Assembly (NCBI GenBank): GCA_947626365.1
Contig: CANQRW010000001.1
Span: 1 to 64,000 of the forward strand
DNA: 64,000 nucleotides
Direction of reading: 5' to 3'
From: an uncultured Lachnospiraceae bacterium
Lineage (GTDB): Bacteria > Bacillota > Clostridia > Lachnospirales > Lachnospiraceae
This document shows positions 2,991 to 8,002 of the stretch, one piece after another (within the stretch, counting starts at the first letter, position 1; each line of letters opens with the position of its first letter). Under the pieces are notes generated by a model. The model made no database searches. It saw only the letters and a list, made by a program, of their open reading frames with translations, and was not told where the DNA came from. The position numbers and the translations under genes were made by a program.

Positions 2991-3956
2991 ATGAGAACGG
3001 TTCTGGTTACGATTCCTGTGAATGACCGGCATAAAGAATACCTTGAGAGTATAGGAAAGGATTGTGAATTTCATTATGTGCCTGCCGCCAGGGTGACGGA
3101 GGCAGATGTGCGGCAGGCCCAGATCATCATCGGAAATGTGCCTCCGAAGATGATTCAGGAGTCGCCTGATCTTCAGTGGATCCAGCTGAATTCCGCCGGT
3201 TCCGACGCGTACTGCAAACCGGGAGTTCTGAAGCCGGGAACCATTCTTACCAACGCCACCGGCGCTTACGGTCTCGCGATTTCGGAATACATGCTTGGCG
3301 TATCCATCATGCTTCAGAATAAGCTGTATACCTACCATAAAAACCAGCTTCAGCATGTCTGGAGAGATGAAGGGGACGTGACTTCCATCTATGGTTCTAC
3401 GGCCCTGATTATCGGTCTGGGAGATATCGGCGGCGAGTATGCAAAAAGAATGAAGGCTTTGGGTGGTTATACCATCGGCGTACGCCGGACGCAAAGCGAA
3501 AAACCGGATTATCTGGATGAAATATACACAGTTGACCGGCTGGACGAGCTTCTTCCGCGGGCGGATTTTGTGTCCCTGTCTCTGCCCAACTCACCGGCAA
3601 CCAGACATATCATGAATGAGGAACGGATGAAGAAGATGAAGCCCACAGCCTTTTTGATCAATGTAGGCCGTGGCGAGGCTATCGATACGGATGCTTTGTG
3701 CCGGGTGTTGAAAAGCGGCCATCTGGGAGGCTGCGCCCTGGATGTGACGGATCCGGAGCCCCTTCCGGAGGATCATCCTCTGTGGGACGCACCCAGGACG
3801 ATCATCACCCCTCATATCGCCGGTAAATTCCACCTGCAGGAGACCTTCGAAAGGATCGTGCGGATTGCCGGCGGCAATCTGGAGAATTTCCTGGCAGGGA
3901 AAACCGGCGAGATGAGAAATCTGGTGGATTTTGCGACCGGATACCGGAAACGCTAG
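2991..3956 (+). CDS. D-2-hydroxyacid dehydrogenase
   Basis: 'IIGLGDIGGEYAKRMKALG', 'SLPNSPATRHIMNEERMKKMKPTAFLINVGRGEAID', 'ALDVTDPEPLPEDHPLWD'; GGGAG RBS before ATG 2991. Confidence 0.9.
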   Translation: MRTVLVTIPVNDRHKEYLESIGKDCEFHYVPAARVTEADVRQAQIIIGNVPPKMIQESPDLQWIQLNSAGSDAYCKPGVLKPGTILTNATGAYGLAISEYMLGVSIMLQNKLYTYHKNQLQHVWRDEGDVTSIYGSTALIIGLGDIGGEYAKRMKALGGYTIGVRRTQSEKPDYLDEIYTVDRLDELLPRADFVSLSLPNSPATRHIMNEERMKKMKPTAFLINVGRGEAIDTDALCRVLKSGHLGGCALDVTDPEPLPEDHPLWDAPRTIITPHIAGKFHLQETFERIVRIAGGNLENFLAGKTGEMRNLVDFATGYRKR

Positions 3957-3958
3957 AA

Positions 3959-4012
3959 TGTCCGATTATCCGTCATATTCCAGATATGCTCCCTTCATGG
4001 GGCTTGCGGCGT
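3959..4012. repeat. left copy of perfect 54-bp direct repeat (candidate attL); duplicates the 3' end of the dehydratase gene
   Basis: TGTCCGATTATCCGTCATATTCCAGATATGCTCCCTTCATGGGGCTTGCGGCGT identical to 5359-5412. Confidence 0.97.
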
Positions 4013-4093
4013 ATTACGTCAGTATGCAAAAAGAGCGCCAGCGACGTTTTTTTGTATTACGTCAGTATGCGAGTAGAGCGCCAGTGACGTTTT
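4011..4093. repeat. two tandem copies of a 43-bp unit at the left inner end of the cassette
   Basis: GTATTACGTCAGTATGC(AAAAA/GAGT)AGAGCGCCAG(C/T)GACGTTTT at 4011 and 4054; each carries ACGTC...GACGT inverted half-sites. Confidence 0.85.
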
Positions 4094-4174
4094 GCGCGTA
4101 TTTGAGAATATAAGTATGTCAGATTTGCATATACTGATTATGGTTGTGATACTATGACAAAATTATTTTCTGTC

Positions 4175-4203
4175 TTGACAGGTTTTAATTGGCATAGTAA
4201 AAT
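4175..4203 (+). promoter_or_regulatory. sigma-70/A type promoter for the small RNA upstream of abi
   Basis: TTGACA (4175-4180), 17-nt spacer, TAAAAT (4198-4203). Confidence 0.75.
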
Positions 4204-4209
4204 ACAATC

Positions 4210-4274
4210 AGTGATTAGGTTTCAGATACTCGTGAGGACTGAGACCGAGGGAGGACCTGCGGGCCCTCCTTTTT
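4210..4274 (+). ncRNA. candidate AbiF-associated small structured RNA (about 65 nt, two hairpins)
   Basis: hairpin 1 GGTTTCAG (4218-4225)/CTGAGACC (4239-4246); hairpin 2 GGAGGACC-TGCG-GGCCCTCC (4250-4269) with a UNCG-type loop and T-tract; promoter at correct spacing upstream. Confidence 0.7.
4250..4274 (+). terminator. intrinsic terminator ending the small RNA just upstream of the abi start
   Basis: GGAGGACC TGCG GGCCCTCC TTTTT. Confidence 0.75.
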
Positions 4275-4305
4275 ACATATTAATTTTGCAAAGGGGAGGG
4301 ATGAA

Positions 4306-5241
4306 GTGTTCAAACCATTCCTTACATATCAGCAGCAAATACGAAAACTCGTTGATGAAAAGCACTTGATTGTTAAAGATGTTACGTTTGCCATGGAGAA
4401 ATTACAAGAATTAAGTTATTTCACCTTAATTGGCGGTTATAAAACTTTATTTCGTAATCCGATGACCAGAGTATATATAAAAAATACCACATTTGAGGAT
4501 ATTTATGCTTTATATCAATTTGACAATCAGCTTCGTGAATTGGTTTTTAAGTATATTTGTCAGGTTGAAAAGAAAATACGCAGTTTGGTTTCTTATGCAT
4601 TTTGCGAGCGATACGGTGAATCACAAAATGCTTATTTAAATTCCGCCTATTACAATTATTCAGCCAGAAACCAAAAGAATGTTGATAAATTGATTCGTAT
4701 TTTGGACAGGCTGGCAAACAGAGATTCAGACTATGAGTATCTTGTTTATCAGCGGAGAGTTTATGGAAATGTACCATTATGGGTTCTTATAAATGCGTTA
4801 ACCTTTGGTCAGTTGTCTAAAATGTATTCTTTGTTATCTTATCAAATACAGAGTGCAGTCAGCCGAAAGTTTGTCCATGTGAATGAAAAAGAATTAGAGC
4901 AATATCTGAAGGTTCTTGTTTTATATCGTAATATTTGCGCTCATAATGAACGATTATTTTCCCATAAAGTATATTCTGAAATACCCAATACAATTCTGCA
5001 TCAAAAATTAAGAATTGCTAAAAATGGTAATCAATATATTTATGGCAAAAAGGATTTATTCAGTGTTGTAATTGCATTTCGGTACTTATTACCTAAAGAG
5101 GATTTTATTATTTTTAAGAGGGAGCTTTCAAAACAGATTGGAAAGTATTTGAAGAAAAGTCAGAGGATCAAAGAGTATGATTTACTGGAAATAATGGGAT
5201 TTCCCCGCAATTGGAAAAATATTACCAGATATAAGATGTAA
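4306..5241 (+). CDS. Abi family protein (Abi_2; AbiD/AbiF-like HEPN ribonuclease)
   Basis: GTG start after AAGGGGAGGG; 'FKPFLTYQQQIRKLVDEKHLIV', 'LQELSYFTLIGGYKTLF', HEPN Rx4H motif 'YRNICAHNERLFS'. Confidence 0.88.
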   Translation: MFKPFLTYQQQIRKLVDEKHLIVKDVTFAMEKLQELSYFTLIGGYKTLFRNPMTRVYIKNTTFEDIYALYQFDNQLRELVFKYICQVEKKIRSLVSYAFCERYGESQNAYLNSAYYNYSARNQKNVDKLIRILDRLANRDSDYEYLVYQRRVYGNVPLWVLINALTFGQLSKMYSLLSYQIQSAVSRKFVHVNEKELEQYLKVLVLYRNICAHNERLFSHKVYSEIPNTILHQKLRIAKNGNQYIYGKKDLFSVVIAFRYLLPKEDFIIFKRELSKQIGKYLKKSQRIKEYDLLEIMGFPRNWKNITRYKM

Positions 5242-5270
5242 TGGGTATGCAACGTCAATTCATGTTGGAA

Positions 5271-5357
5271 CAGGGGGTAGCCGCCCGGTCAAAGTCGGAG
5301 CGACATCCCCTGCTCTGAGAAATATTCTTTATTTTTATGTGTCATTGTTTGACCGGG
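5271..5357. repeat. nested inverted repeats at the right inner end of the cassette
   Basis: CAGGGG (5271-5276)/CCCCTG (5307-5312) around GTCG-GAG-CGAC (5294-5304); CCCGGTCAAA (5284-5293)/TTTGACCGGG (5348-5357). Confidence 0.7.
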
Positions 5358-5358
5358 T

Positions 5359-5412
5359 TGTCCGATTATCCGTCATATTCCAGATATGCTCCCTTCATGG
5401 GGCTTGCGGCGT
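5359..5412. repeat. right copy of 54-bp direct repeat (candidate attR), part of the intact dehydratase 3' end
   Basis: identical to 3959-4012; encodes ...AASPMKGAYLEYDG* on the minus strand. Confidence 0.97.
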
Positions 5413-7120
5413 GCTCGGAGAATAATCTGAGTACGCCTTTTTGATAGCGGCGGGGACGGGGCGTCCAACGGGCTTTCCGTTCGGCCAGAATCCGGTCGAT
5501 CTCCTCCGGGGATTTCCGCTGACCCGCGACGCCTACGATGTTCAGCTTTCTGCCGAACACGTCGATCTCGATCAGATCCCCTTCCTCTACCAGGGCGATG
5601 GGGCCGCCGTCAGCGGCTTCCGGACTGCAGTGGCCGATAACCGGCCCGGTGGATGCGCCGGAGAAACGTCCGTCGGTGATGAGGGCGATGCTGCGTCCCA
5701 GTTCTTTATCGCTGGAAATGGCCTCGGAGGTGTAGAACATCTCCGGCATGCCGCTGCCCTTGGGACCCTCGTAGCGGATGAAGACGGCGTCCCCCTTTTC
5801 CACCTTATGGTGGAGAACCGCGTCCAGACATTCTTCTTCGCTGTCGAAGGGACGGGCCCGAAGAACCGCCTGATACATTTCTTTGGGACAGGCGGTATGT
5901 TTGATGACCGCGCCCTCGGGGGCCAGGTTGCCCCGGAGGACGGCGATGCTGCCGTCGGTTCCGATGGCTTTGTCAAAGGGGCGTATGATGTCCTCACGGG
6001 TGACGGAGCAGTGCTGTCTCCTGTTGAAGTCCTCCAGCCATTTCTCACAGCGTTCGTAGAAGCCGTTGGTTTTCAGTTCTTCCAGATTTTCTCCCAATGT
6101 CTTACCCGTGACGGTCATCACATCCAGATGAAGCAAATGTTTGATCTCTTCCATGATGGCGGGAACGCCGCCCGCGTAGTAGAAGCACTCTGCCGGCCAG
6201 CGGCCCGCGGGCCGTACATCCAGAAGGTAGTGAGCGCCCCGGTGGAGCCGATCGAAGGTATCGCCGGTAATCTCGATGCCCAGTTCATGGGCGATAGCCG
6301 GCAGATGCAGCAGGCAGTTGGTGCTGCCGGAGATAGCCGCGTGTACCAGGATCGCGTTCTCAAAACTTTCCAGGGTAACAATATCGCCGGGACGCATATG
6401 TTCCATAAACGCCAGCTTCACAGCCTGGCGTCCCGCCTCCCGGGCGTAGGTCAGAAGATCCGGGCTGGCGGCAGGCATCAGGGCGCTTCCGGGAAGAGCC
6501 AGGCCCAATGCTTCCGCCATGATCTGCATGGTGGAAGCTGTGCCGATGAAGGAACAGGCGCCGCAGCTGGGACAAGCATTCTGTTTGGCCCAGTTCAGCC
6601 GTTCTTCCTTGATCTCGCCCCGCTCAAAACCGGCGCTGTACATGCCAAGCTGCTCCAGGGTCAGCATCTCAGGACCGGCGTTCATGGTGCCGCCCGGGAC
6701 TACGACGGAAGGGATATTGACGCGCATAAGCCCCATCAGATTGCCGGGCATTCCCTTGTCGCAGCTTGCCAGAAAAACGCCTGCGTCGAAAGGCGTGGCA
6801 TTGGCCTGTATTTCAATCATGTTGGCGATGATCTCCCGGCTGACCAGGCTGAAATTGATACCGTCGGTACCCTGGCTTTCGCCGTCGCAGATGTCGGTGC
6901 AGAAATACCTGGCCCCATATCCGCCGGCTTCGGCGACGCCCTTTCGCGCTTCCTCCACCAGAAGGTTCAGGTGGCCGCTTCCCGGATGGCTGTCGCCGTA
7001 AGTACTCTCGATGAAGATCTGGGGCTTAGACAGATCCTCCGGCTTCCAGCCGGTGCCCAGCCGCAGGGGATCGAGCTCCGGGGCCAGAGTACGCATTTTT
7101 TGACTGATTAGACAACTCAT
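5366..7120 (-). CDS. IlvD/Edd family dehydratase (sugar-acid or dihydroxy-acid dehydratase)
   Basis: 'CDKGMPGNLMGLMRVNIPSVVVPGGTM', 'CPSCGACSFIGTASTMQIMAEALGLALPGSA', 'DGRFSGASTGPVIGHCSPEA'; ATG at 7120 with upstream GGAAAGG. Confidence 0.93.
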   Translation of the reverse strand: MSCLISQKMRTLAPELDPLRLGTGWKPEDLSKPQIFIESTYGDSHPGSGHLNLLVEEARKGVAEAGGYGARYFCTDICDGESQGTDGINFSLVSREIIANMIEIQANATPFDAGVFLASCDKGMPGNLMGLMRVNIPSVVVPGGTMNAGPEMLTLEQLGMYSAGFERGEIKEERLNWAKQNACPSCGACSFIGTASTMQIMAEALGLALPGSALMPAASPDLLTYAREAGRQAVKLAFMEHMRPGDIVTLESFENAILVHAAISGSTNCLLHLPAIAHELGIEITGDTFDRLHRGAHYLLDVRPAGRWPAECFYYAGGVPAIMEEIKHLLHLDVMTVTGKTLGENLEELKTNGFYERCEKWLEDFNRRQHCSVTREDIIRPFDKAIGTDGSIAVLRGNLAPEGAVIKHTACPKEMYQAVLRARPFDSEEECLDAVLHHKVEKGDAVFIRYEGPKGSGMPEMFYTSEAISSDKELGRSIALITDGRFSGASTGPVIGHCSPEAADGGPIALVEEGDLIEIDVFGRKLNIVGVAGQRKSPEEIDRILAERKARWTPRPRRYQKGVLRLFSEHAASPMKGAYLEYDG

Positions 7121-7182
7121 AGTAATGATCCTTTCCTGCAATAAATAACAGCTTGTGTATTCGAAAATCTCATTAGCAAGCA

Positions 7183-7294: not shown

Positions 7295-8002
7295 TCAGCA
7301 GGATCCGGCTGACAGAGAGTCTGTTTCGGCGGTAATGCGGTCTCGATTATGGATTAAATGCTCCCGCATGACGGCGTAAGCAGCGTTTCCGTCATGTCGC
7401 GCTATGGCATCGGCAATTTGCCTGTGAGTACGAATGGTCATTTCGAGCAGAGAAGAATTTGTTACTATAATAAATAAGGAGACACCCTGATGAATAATAG
7501 GAACAATATTGGCGACAACCTGATTGTGGCTGGCGGCTGCGATCGCTTCATGAAAGAGAATATCTTCCGTTCGATGAGAAGTACCGGCATAAATGGCCTG
7601 TTCCACAGCCTGGCAGCAGGACATAATCTTGGCAATATCCTCTTCCGTAGCCCGTTCTGCCGCGAGCGAGGCAATGTTCGGCTCCAGAAAAAGACGGATT
7701 TCACAGAGATCTTGCGCCAGTTTGCGCTTGTCTGTACAGAAAGAAAAGCCCAGAGGATCGTCCATCAGGCCGGGATGTTCCGTTACATAGGTGCCATTCC
7801 CCCTGCGAATAACCAGAATATTGCGGGAAACCAGGATTTTGACTGCTTCACGGATCGTACCGCGTCCGACATTCAATTCCTCTAAAAGCTCAAATTCTGT
7901 TGGAAGCTTCTGTCCCGGCTTCCATTCTCCGTTCATAATCTTGTTCTGCAGTTCCTCAGCTACCTGATCGGCCAGCTGCATGCGCGGGGTTCTTGCGGCC
8001 AT
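7295..8002 (-). CDS. GntR family transcriptional regulator, FadR/FCD type
   Basis: 'LADQVAEELQNKIMNGEWKPGQKLPTEFELLEELNVGRGTIREAVKILVSRNILVIRRGNGTYV' wHTH + FCD 'LFHEAIAAASHN'. Confidence 0.93.
   Translation of the reverse strand: MAARTPRMQLADQVAEELQNKIMNGEWKPGQKLPTEFELLEELNVGRGTIREAVKILVSRNILVIRRGNGTYVTEHPGLMDDPLGFSFCTDKRKLAQDLCEIRLFLEPNIASLAAERATEEDIAKIMSCCQAVEQAIYAGTSHRTEDILFHEAIAAASHNQVVANIVPIIHQGVSLFIIVTNSSLLEMTIRTHRQIADAIARHDGNAAYAVMREHLIHNRDRITAETDSLSAGSC

Follow-up and report, generated by a model that had tools for sequence, protein, structure and literature searches.

How does a small gene cassette come to lie between two intact housekeeping genes when no recombinase is found close by? 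The question is posed by a locus near the left end of the stretch of DNA analysed here, 64,000 nucleotides from an uncultured Lachnospiraceae bacterium (the window). A gene of the Abi_2 family and a small RNA are located there between a 2-hydroxyacid dehydrogenase gene and an ilvD-type dehydratase gene, with the same 54 bp at either end. In this study, we examine the layout of the cassette, its absence from sister species, the flanks of related Abi loci, and the routes by which it may have been inserted.

Results

Layout of the locus

The two copies of the 54-nt direct repeat, which a repeat search of the window placed at a spacing of 1400, enclose an interval of 1346 bp (Table 1). The right copy consists of the last codons of ilvD, the stop codon of this minus-strand gene (5366-5368) and 7 nt beyond it. 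Between the copies the GC content is 31-38%, as compared to 51-62% outside. The insert runs, from left to right, through two hairpin-repeat units, a probable promoter, the small RNA, the Abi_2 gene and a 117-nt right-end piece, for which a convincing homologue was absent among 397 family genomes. A domain search of ten neighbouring genes found no recombinase within 12 kb of the cassette, and PF00589 had no match on the 185-kb contig. The original prediction had described perfect 54-bp direct repeats around an AT-rich interval that carries one Abi_2/HEPN reading frame and a small RNA, with neither integrase nor transposase, and this description is borne out in each of its parts. Elsewhere in the window, at about 2020-2210, the chorismate synthase gene contains an internal repetitive insertion of ~55 residues that the Pfam model lacks.

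Table 1. Features of the cassette and its neighbours (positions in the window)
Feature	Position	Strand	Evidence
2-hydroxyacid dehydrogenase gene, intact left neighbour	2994..3956	+	PF02826 E=1e-54; convergent with ilvD, uninterrupted in G011 and G018
Left copy of the 54-bp duplication (ilvD 3' end, stop, 7 nt)	3959..4012	+	100% identical to 5359-5412; single copy in G011 and G018
Two units of the dispersed ~43-nt hairpin repeat of the genus	4013..4104	+	>40 places in own genome, 79-95% identity
Probable small-RNA promoter TTGACA-17-TAAAAT	4175..4203	+	11/12 consensus match
Small RNA: covarying 7-bp helix and terminator hairpin; probable Abi_2 antitoxin	4209..4275	+	81.3 bits (E=3.7e-23) with a covariance model whose 22 training rows include the window
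Abi_2 (AbiD/F group) gene, 311 aa, GTG start	4306..5241	+	PF07751 E=3.7e-46
Right-end segment, possible hairpin CCCGGTCAAA/TTTGACCGGG	5242..5358	+	Fold z=-1.83, weak
Right copy of the 54-bp duplication, continuous with intact ilvD	5359..5412	+	100% identical to 3959-4012
ilvD-type dehydratase gene, intact right neighbour	5366..7126	-	PF00920 E=2.3e-109, PF24877 E=2.4e-59

The Abi_2 gene and its small RNA

The insert has a single Abi_2 reading frame, whose PF07751 match scores 158 bits against a cut-off of 25.6. Its best name in PADLOC is AbiD (E=1e-63), the structure of a relative has been solved (PDB 8vz6, named 'Abi family protein'; E=1.6e-17), and the HEPN motif R-x4-H is intact in the translation as RNICAH. 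The gene itself was found in none of the viral contigs or plasmids searched; a relative of 67% identity is present in the phage contig MT838012.1.

The small RNA is genuine, strongly covarying, of antitoxin type, and conserved upstream of this Abi_2 gene family. Its 7-bp helix is paired in 100% of cells in an alignment of 22 relatives, with 5 of the 7 pairs changed on both sides, and pairing drops to 25-45% in controls in which the position of the helix was slid. A terminator-like hairpin follows the helix. The covariance model had no match elsewhere in the organism's own genome, and Rfam gave none up to E=5, including the abiF motif RF03085, which is an RNA motif and not the Abi_2 protein family. 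The promoter is a consensus match only, in a region where the total of such matches is at chance level; in the relatives it is found at the same position relative to the small RNA. By analogy to AbiFCd/RCd22 of Clostridioides difficile, in which an RNA neutralises the toxin and the arrangement is promoter, RNA, terminator and gene (PMC12373285), the small RNA is probably the antitoxin of an Abi_2 toxin. The same analogy would make the protein toxic, neutralised by its RNA, and active in phage defence.

The cassette is an insertion relative to two sister species

The junction between the dehydrogenase gene and ilvD was compared in 26 genomes of the genus. In the two that are closest by locus, G011 (87-88% identity) and G018, the genes converge with only a single repeat copy and no insert between them, and no congener carries an Abi cassette at this site. 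These empty sites are those of other species and not of strains of the same species. Both copies of the repeat in the window are identical to each other, while the sister species differ from them at 9-10 of 54 positions (G011 at 9), and the duplicate was therefore made from the ilvD end of the cassette's own lineage. The cassette is thus an insertion relative to two sister species, and the 54 bp are a duplication derived from the target. On this point the expectation of a minimal defence cassette inserted at the 54-bp core, with empty sites to be found in related genomes, is supported.

Duplicated targets at other Abi loci

Flanks of 1.5 kb at 73 Abi loci, and at 373 control windows taken from the same kind of genomes, were surveyed on both sides for repeats. 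Repeats of up to 45 nt also occurred in controls and were left out of the count. Repeats of 50 nt or more that derive from the target flanked 3 of the 73 Abi loci and 0 of the 373 control windows (Fisher p=0.004), a comparison in which only three loci are clear, the third of them is decayed, and the loci were chosen for having repeats. Since the controls contain no flanking repeat of 50 nt, the 54 nt in the window are beyond chance. The majority of Abi loci have no long flanking repeat.

Besides the window, the three comprise L015 and L121, both of them relatives in other genomes. At L015, whose protein is 53% identical, the cassette is flanked by a 173-bp repeat of 98% identity that corresponds to the 5' end of a gene which, judged by its sequence and not by a domain scan, is 3-methyladenine DNA glycosylase-like, and the locus is uninterrupted, with one copy of the repeat, in the related genome G424. 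At L121 (41% identical), the gene and promoter region to the left of the cassette recurs after it as a decayed copy (114 bp at 88.6% and 23 bp at 100% identity), and the locus is uninterrupted in G397. The three repeats have neither sequence nor length nor position in common: a 3' gene end was duplicated in the window, a 5' gene end at L015, and the interior of a gene plus its promoter at L121.

Several other candidates were not retained. L059 (29 bp, 93%) and L119 (25 bp, 88%) were dropped as not beyond the controls. L180 (73 bp, 100%) was set aside because its right copy ends 3 bp from a contig end, as was L012 (42 bp, 93%), where another gene lies between the copies and the repeat itself includes a palindrome close to a gene end. 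At L085, on contig C26 of the organism's own genome and the site of its second Abi_2 gene, an 88%-identical 52-nt repeat stands before and after the gene; it was rejected as a target duplication, being located at the small-RNA position on both sides, where the model found no match. The flanking repeat of L068 was also rejected, since it is the small RNA itself in duplicate: the covarying RNA is present at 1396-1463 and at 2462-2529, one copy on either side of the Abi_2 gene.

Ends of the cassettes

Inside the left copy, with no gap at the junction, the first ~92 nt of the insert belong to a dispersed 43-nt hairpin repeat, which the original prediction had missed. The family (TTACGTCAGTATGC...GCGCCAGTGACGC...GTATT) usually occurs as 1-3 tandem units and is scattered through the organism's own genome and, in many copies, through those of congeners (L002-L008, L096-L115). 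Long direct repeats were absent from the flanks of all 27 other copies compared; the dispersed repeats by themselves are therefore not the cause of the duplication.

Cassettes of 92-95% identity at unrelated sites share only a part from about -180 to +55 around the gene and have no common termini. L011 carries at its right end the opening codons of a phage tape-measure-like gene, which marks an arbitrary breakpoint. At L015 the left end of the insert is an 82%-identical copy of a segment 2.8 kb distant in that genome, upstream of the neighbouring transporter-like gene, the two being located at 4704-4774 and 7468-7538. A phage tape-measure-like gene directly follows the Abi_2 cassette at L011, L013, L016 and L017; of this gene, L011 retains only the first codons after relocation.

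Recombination routes

The original prediction had taken the 3' end of ilvD as the attB of a site-specific element mobilised by a recombinase in trans. A tyrosine or serine recombinase would then join attP to the ilvD end, the 54 bp would be the att core, and the element's copy would restore the gene. The position of the insert at the 3' end of a conserved gene that has been restored fits this reading, as do the existence of empty sites and the 15 phage-integrase domain matches in the genome. Yet the core had only chance matches at ten of these 15 integrase-domain loci, in a search that covered phage-integrase domains and not serine recombinases, and 29 nt of it had no exact match in 2.9 million viral contigs. 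The ilvD end occurs once in each family genome where it is recognisable, and neither a second copy nor another cargo was present there in congeners or in any family genome matched. A shared att core among related cassettes was rejected as well, the repeats being unrelated and the ends not shared; L015 in particular has its 173-bp repeat at the 5' end of a different gene. In the loci and genomes searched, no recombinase with this core, no other cargo and no further insertion at the same core came to light. A site-specific integrative element is not supported, and we regard a recombinase in trans as unlikely.

More improbable still is homologous integration of the Campbell type, by which a circular DNA, for example phage or transduced DNA, already held a fragment of the host's ilvD end. 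Direct repeats of variable length around the insert would be expected from it too, and related Abi genes do occur in phage contigs and beside phage tape-measure-like genes. However, the donor would have to carry at one end a stretch of the target that comes from the same lineage and is exactly 54 bp long, which is short for RecA, and the viral contigs lack the core as an exact 29-mer. That the cassette is ancestral and was cleanly deleted between its repeats in the sister species, an event that would leave one copy, is scarcely credible in view of the identity of the two copies against their divergence from the sister species, the AT-rich foreign composition, the lack of an Abi cassette at the site in any other congener, and the movement of cassettes between unrelated sites.

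Discussion

The reading that we consider probable, on the strength of the sequence comparisons, is that an RNA-antitoxin/HEPN-toxin cassette was inserted between two convergent genes by a repair-type event with no fixed ends or target, a process described as 'insertion with long target duplication'. The cassette, made up of promoter, ~67-nt RNA and Abi_2 gene, would have entered between the convergent genes and, by duplicating 54 bp of the target, left both of them intact. Joining may have occurred as a staggered break was filled in during the capture of foreign DNA, or by template switching in replication, and the cassette could then have been retained because its toxin is addictive or protects against phage. 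A repair-type event is favoured because the inserts are composite, with a host repeat at the left junction in the window and a diverged copy of local sequence at the left end of L015. In the window, the host repeat together with the right-end piece suggests break repair or template switching. This best explanation does not account for the fact that the left junction falls precisely where the dispersed repeat begins. Prophages are the likely source of the cassettes, given that related genes adjoin tape-measure-like genes and occur in phage contigs.

Because a different target was duplicated at L015, such cassettes seem to move by the route of long target duplication and not by a dedicated integrase. 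RNA-antitoxin HEPN cassettes are relatives of the ancestors of Cas13. They could conceivably be units of mobility in themselves, with a dedicated process, common to them and to restriction-modification genes, that inserts 1.2-kb cassettes at intergenic sites with long, variable duplications and leaves the neighbours intact; from the loci compared here, we think this doubtful. The combination of a cassette, a variable target duplication and an empty site provides a simple signature by which the transposon-free spread of single-gene defence systems can be measured.

Three known systems invite comparison. Integrative elements at protein-coding 3' ends, such as SGI1 at trmE (PMC8409611), resemble the locus in their 3'-end insertion, direct repeats and restored gene. 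In contrast to these, the cassette has no integrase, related cassettes have unrelated repeats, and no other cargo occupies the site.

AbiFCd/RCd22 (PMC12373285) likewise has its small RNA just upstream of Abi_2, with its own promoter, a terminator between RNA and gene, and the HEPN motif in the protein, and occurrence in prophages is a feature of the AbiD/F family described there. The present RNA differs in comprising one motif and not two and in its lack of an Rfam match at E<5, and the PADLOC name of the present gene is AbiD. The gene is also chromosomal, between housekeeping genes, and is not part of a lysis module.

The closest parallel is 'insertion with long target duplication' itself, which was described for restriction-modification genes (Nobusato et al. 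2000, Gene 259:99, as cited in PMC1643837 and PMC3031569 and reviewed in PMC3874152). In these accounts, as here, a small defence or addiction module without a recombinase is inserted with its targets intact at a site that is empty in a relative, and the duplicated target is variable and long, with lengths in the order of 100 bp. The Abi loci agree with this in their single-copy empty sites (G011 and G018 for the window, G424 for L015, G397 for L121), in duplications of 54 bp, 173 bp and 114+23 bp with unrelated sequences, and in inserts that lack both a recombinase and conserved termini. The type of insertion proposed here is already known, and what is new is its occurrence around a probable RNA-antitoxin HEPN system. 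The cases in those accounts concern restriction-modification genes, mostly in Helicobacter, whereas the present system is of a HEPN RNase type with a putative RNA antitoxin, in a Lachnospiraceae-like genome, and is not known to cut DNA itself. With restriction-modification genes, it might be supposed that the cutting of DNA brings the insertions about. The same scar around an RNase-type system that is apparently neutralised by RNA suggests a general route for addictive defence modules, one that needs no DNA-cutting cargo.
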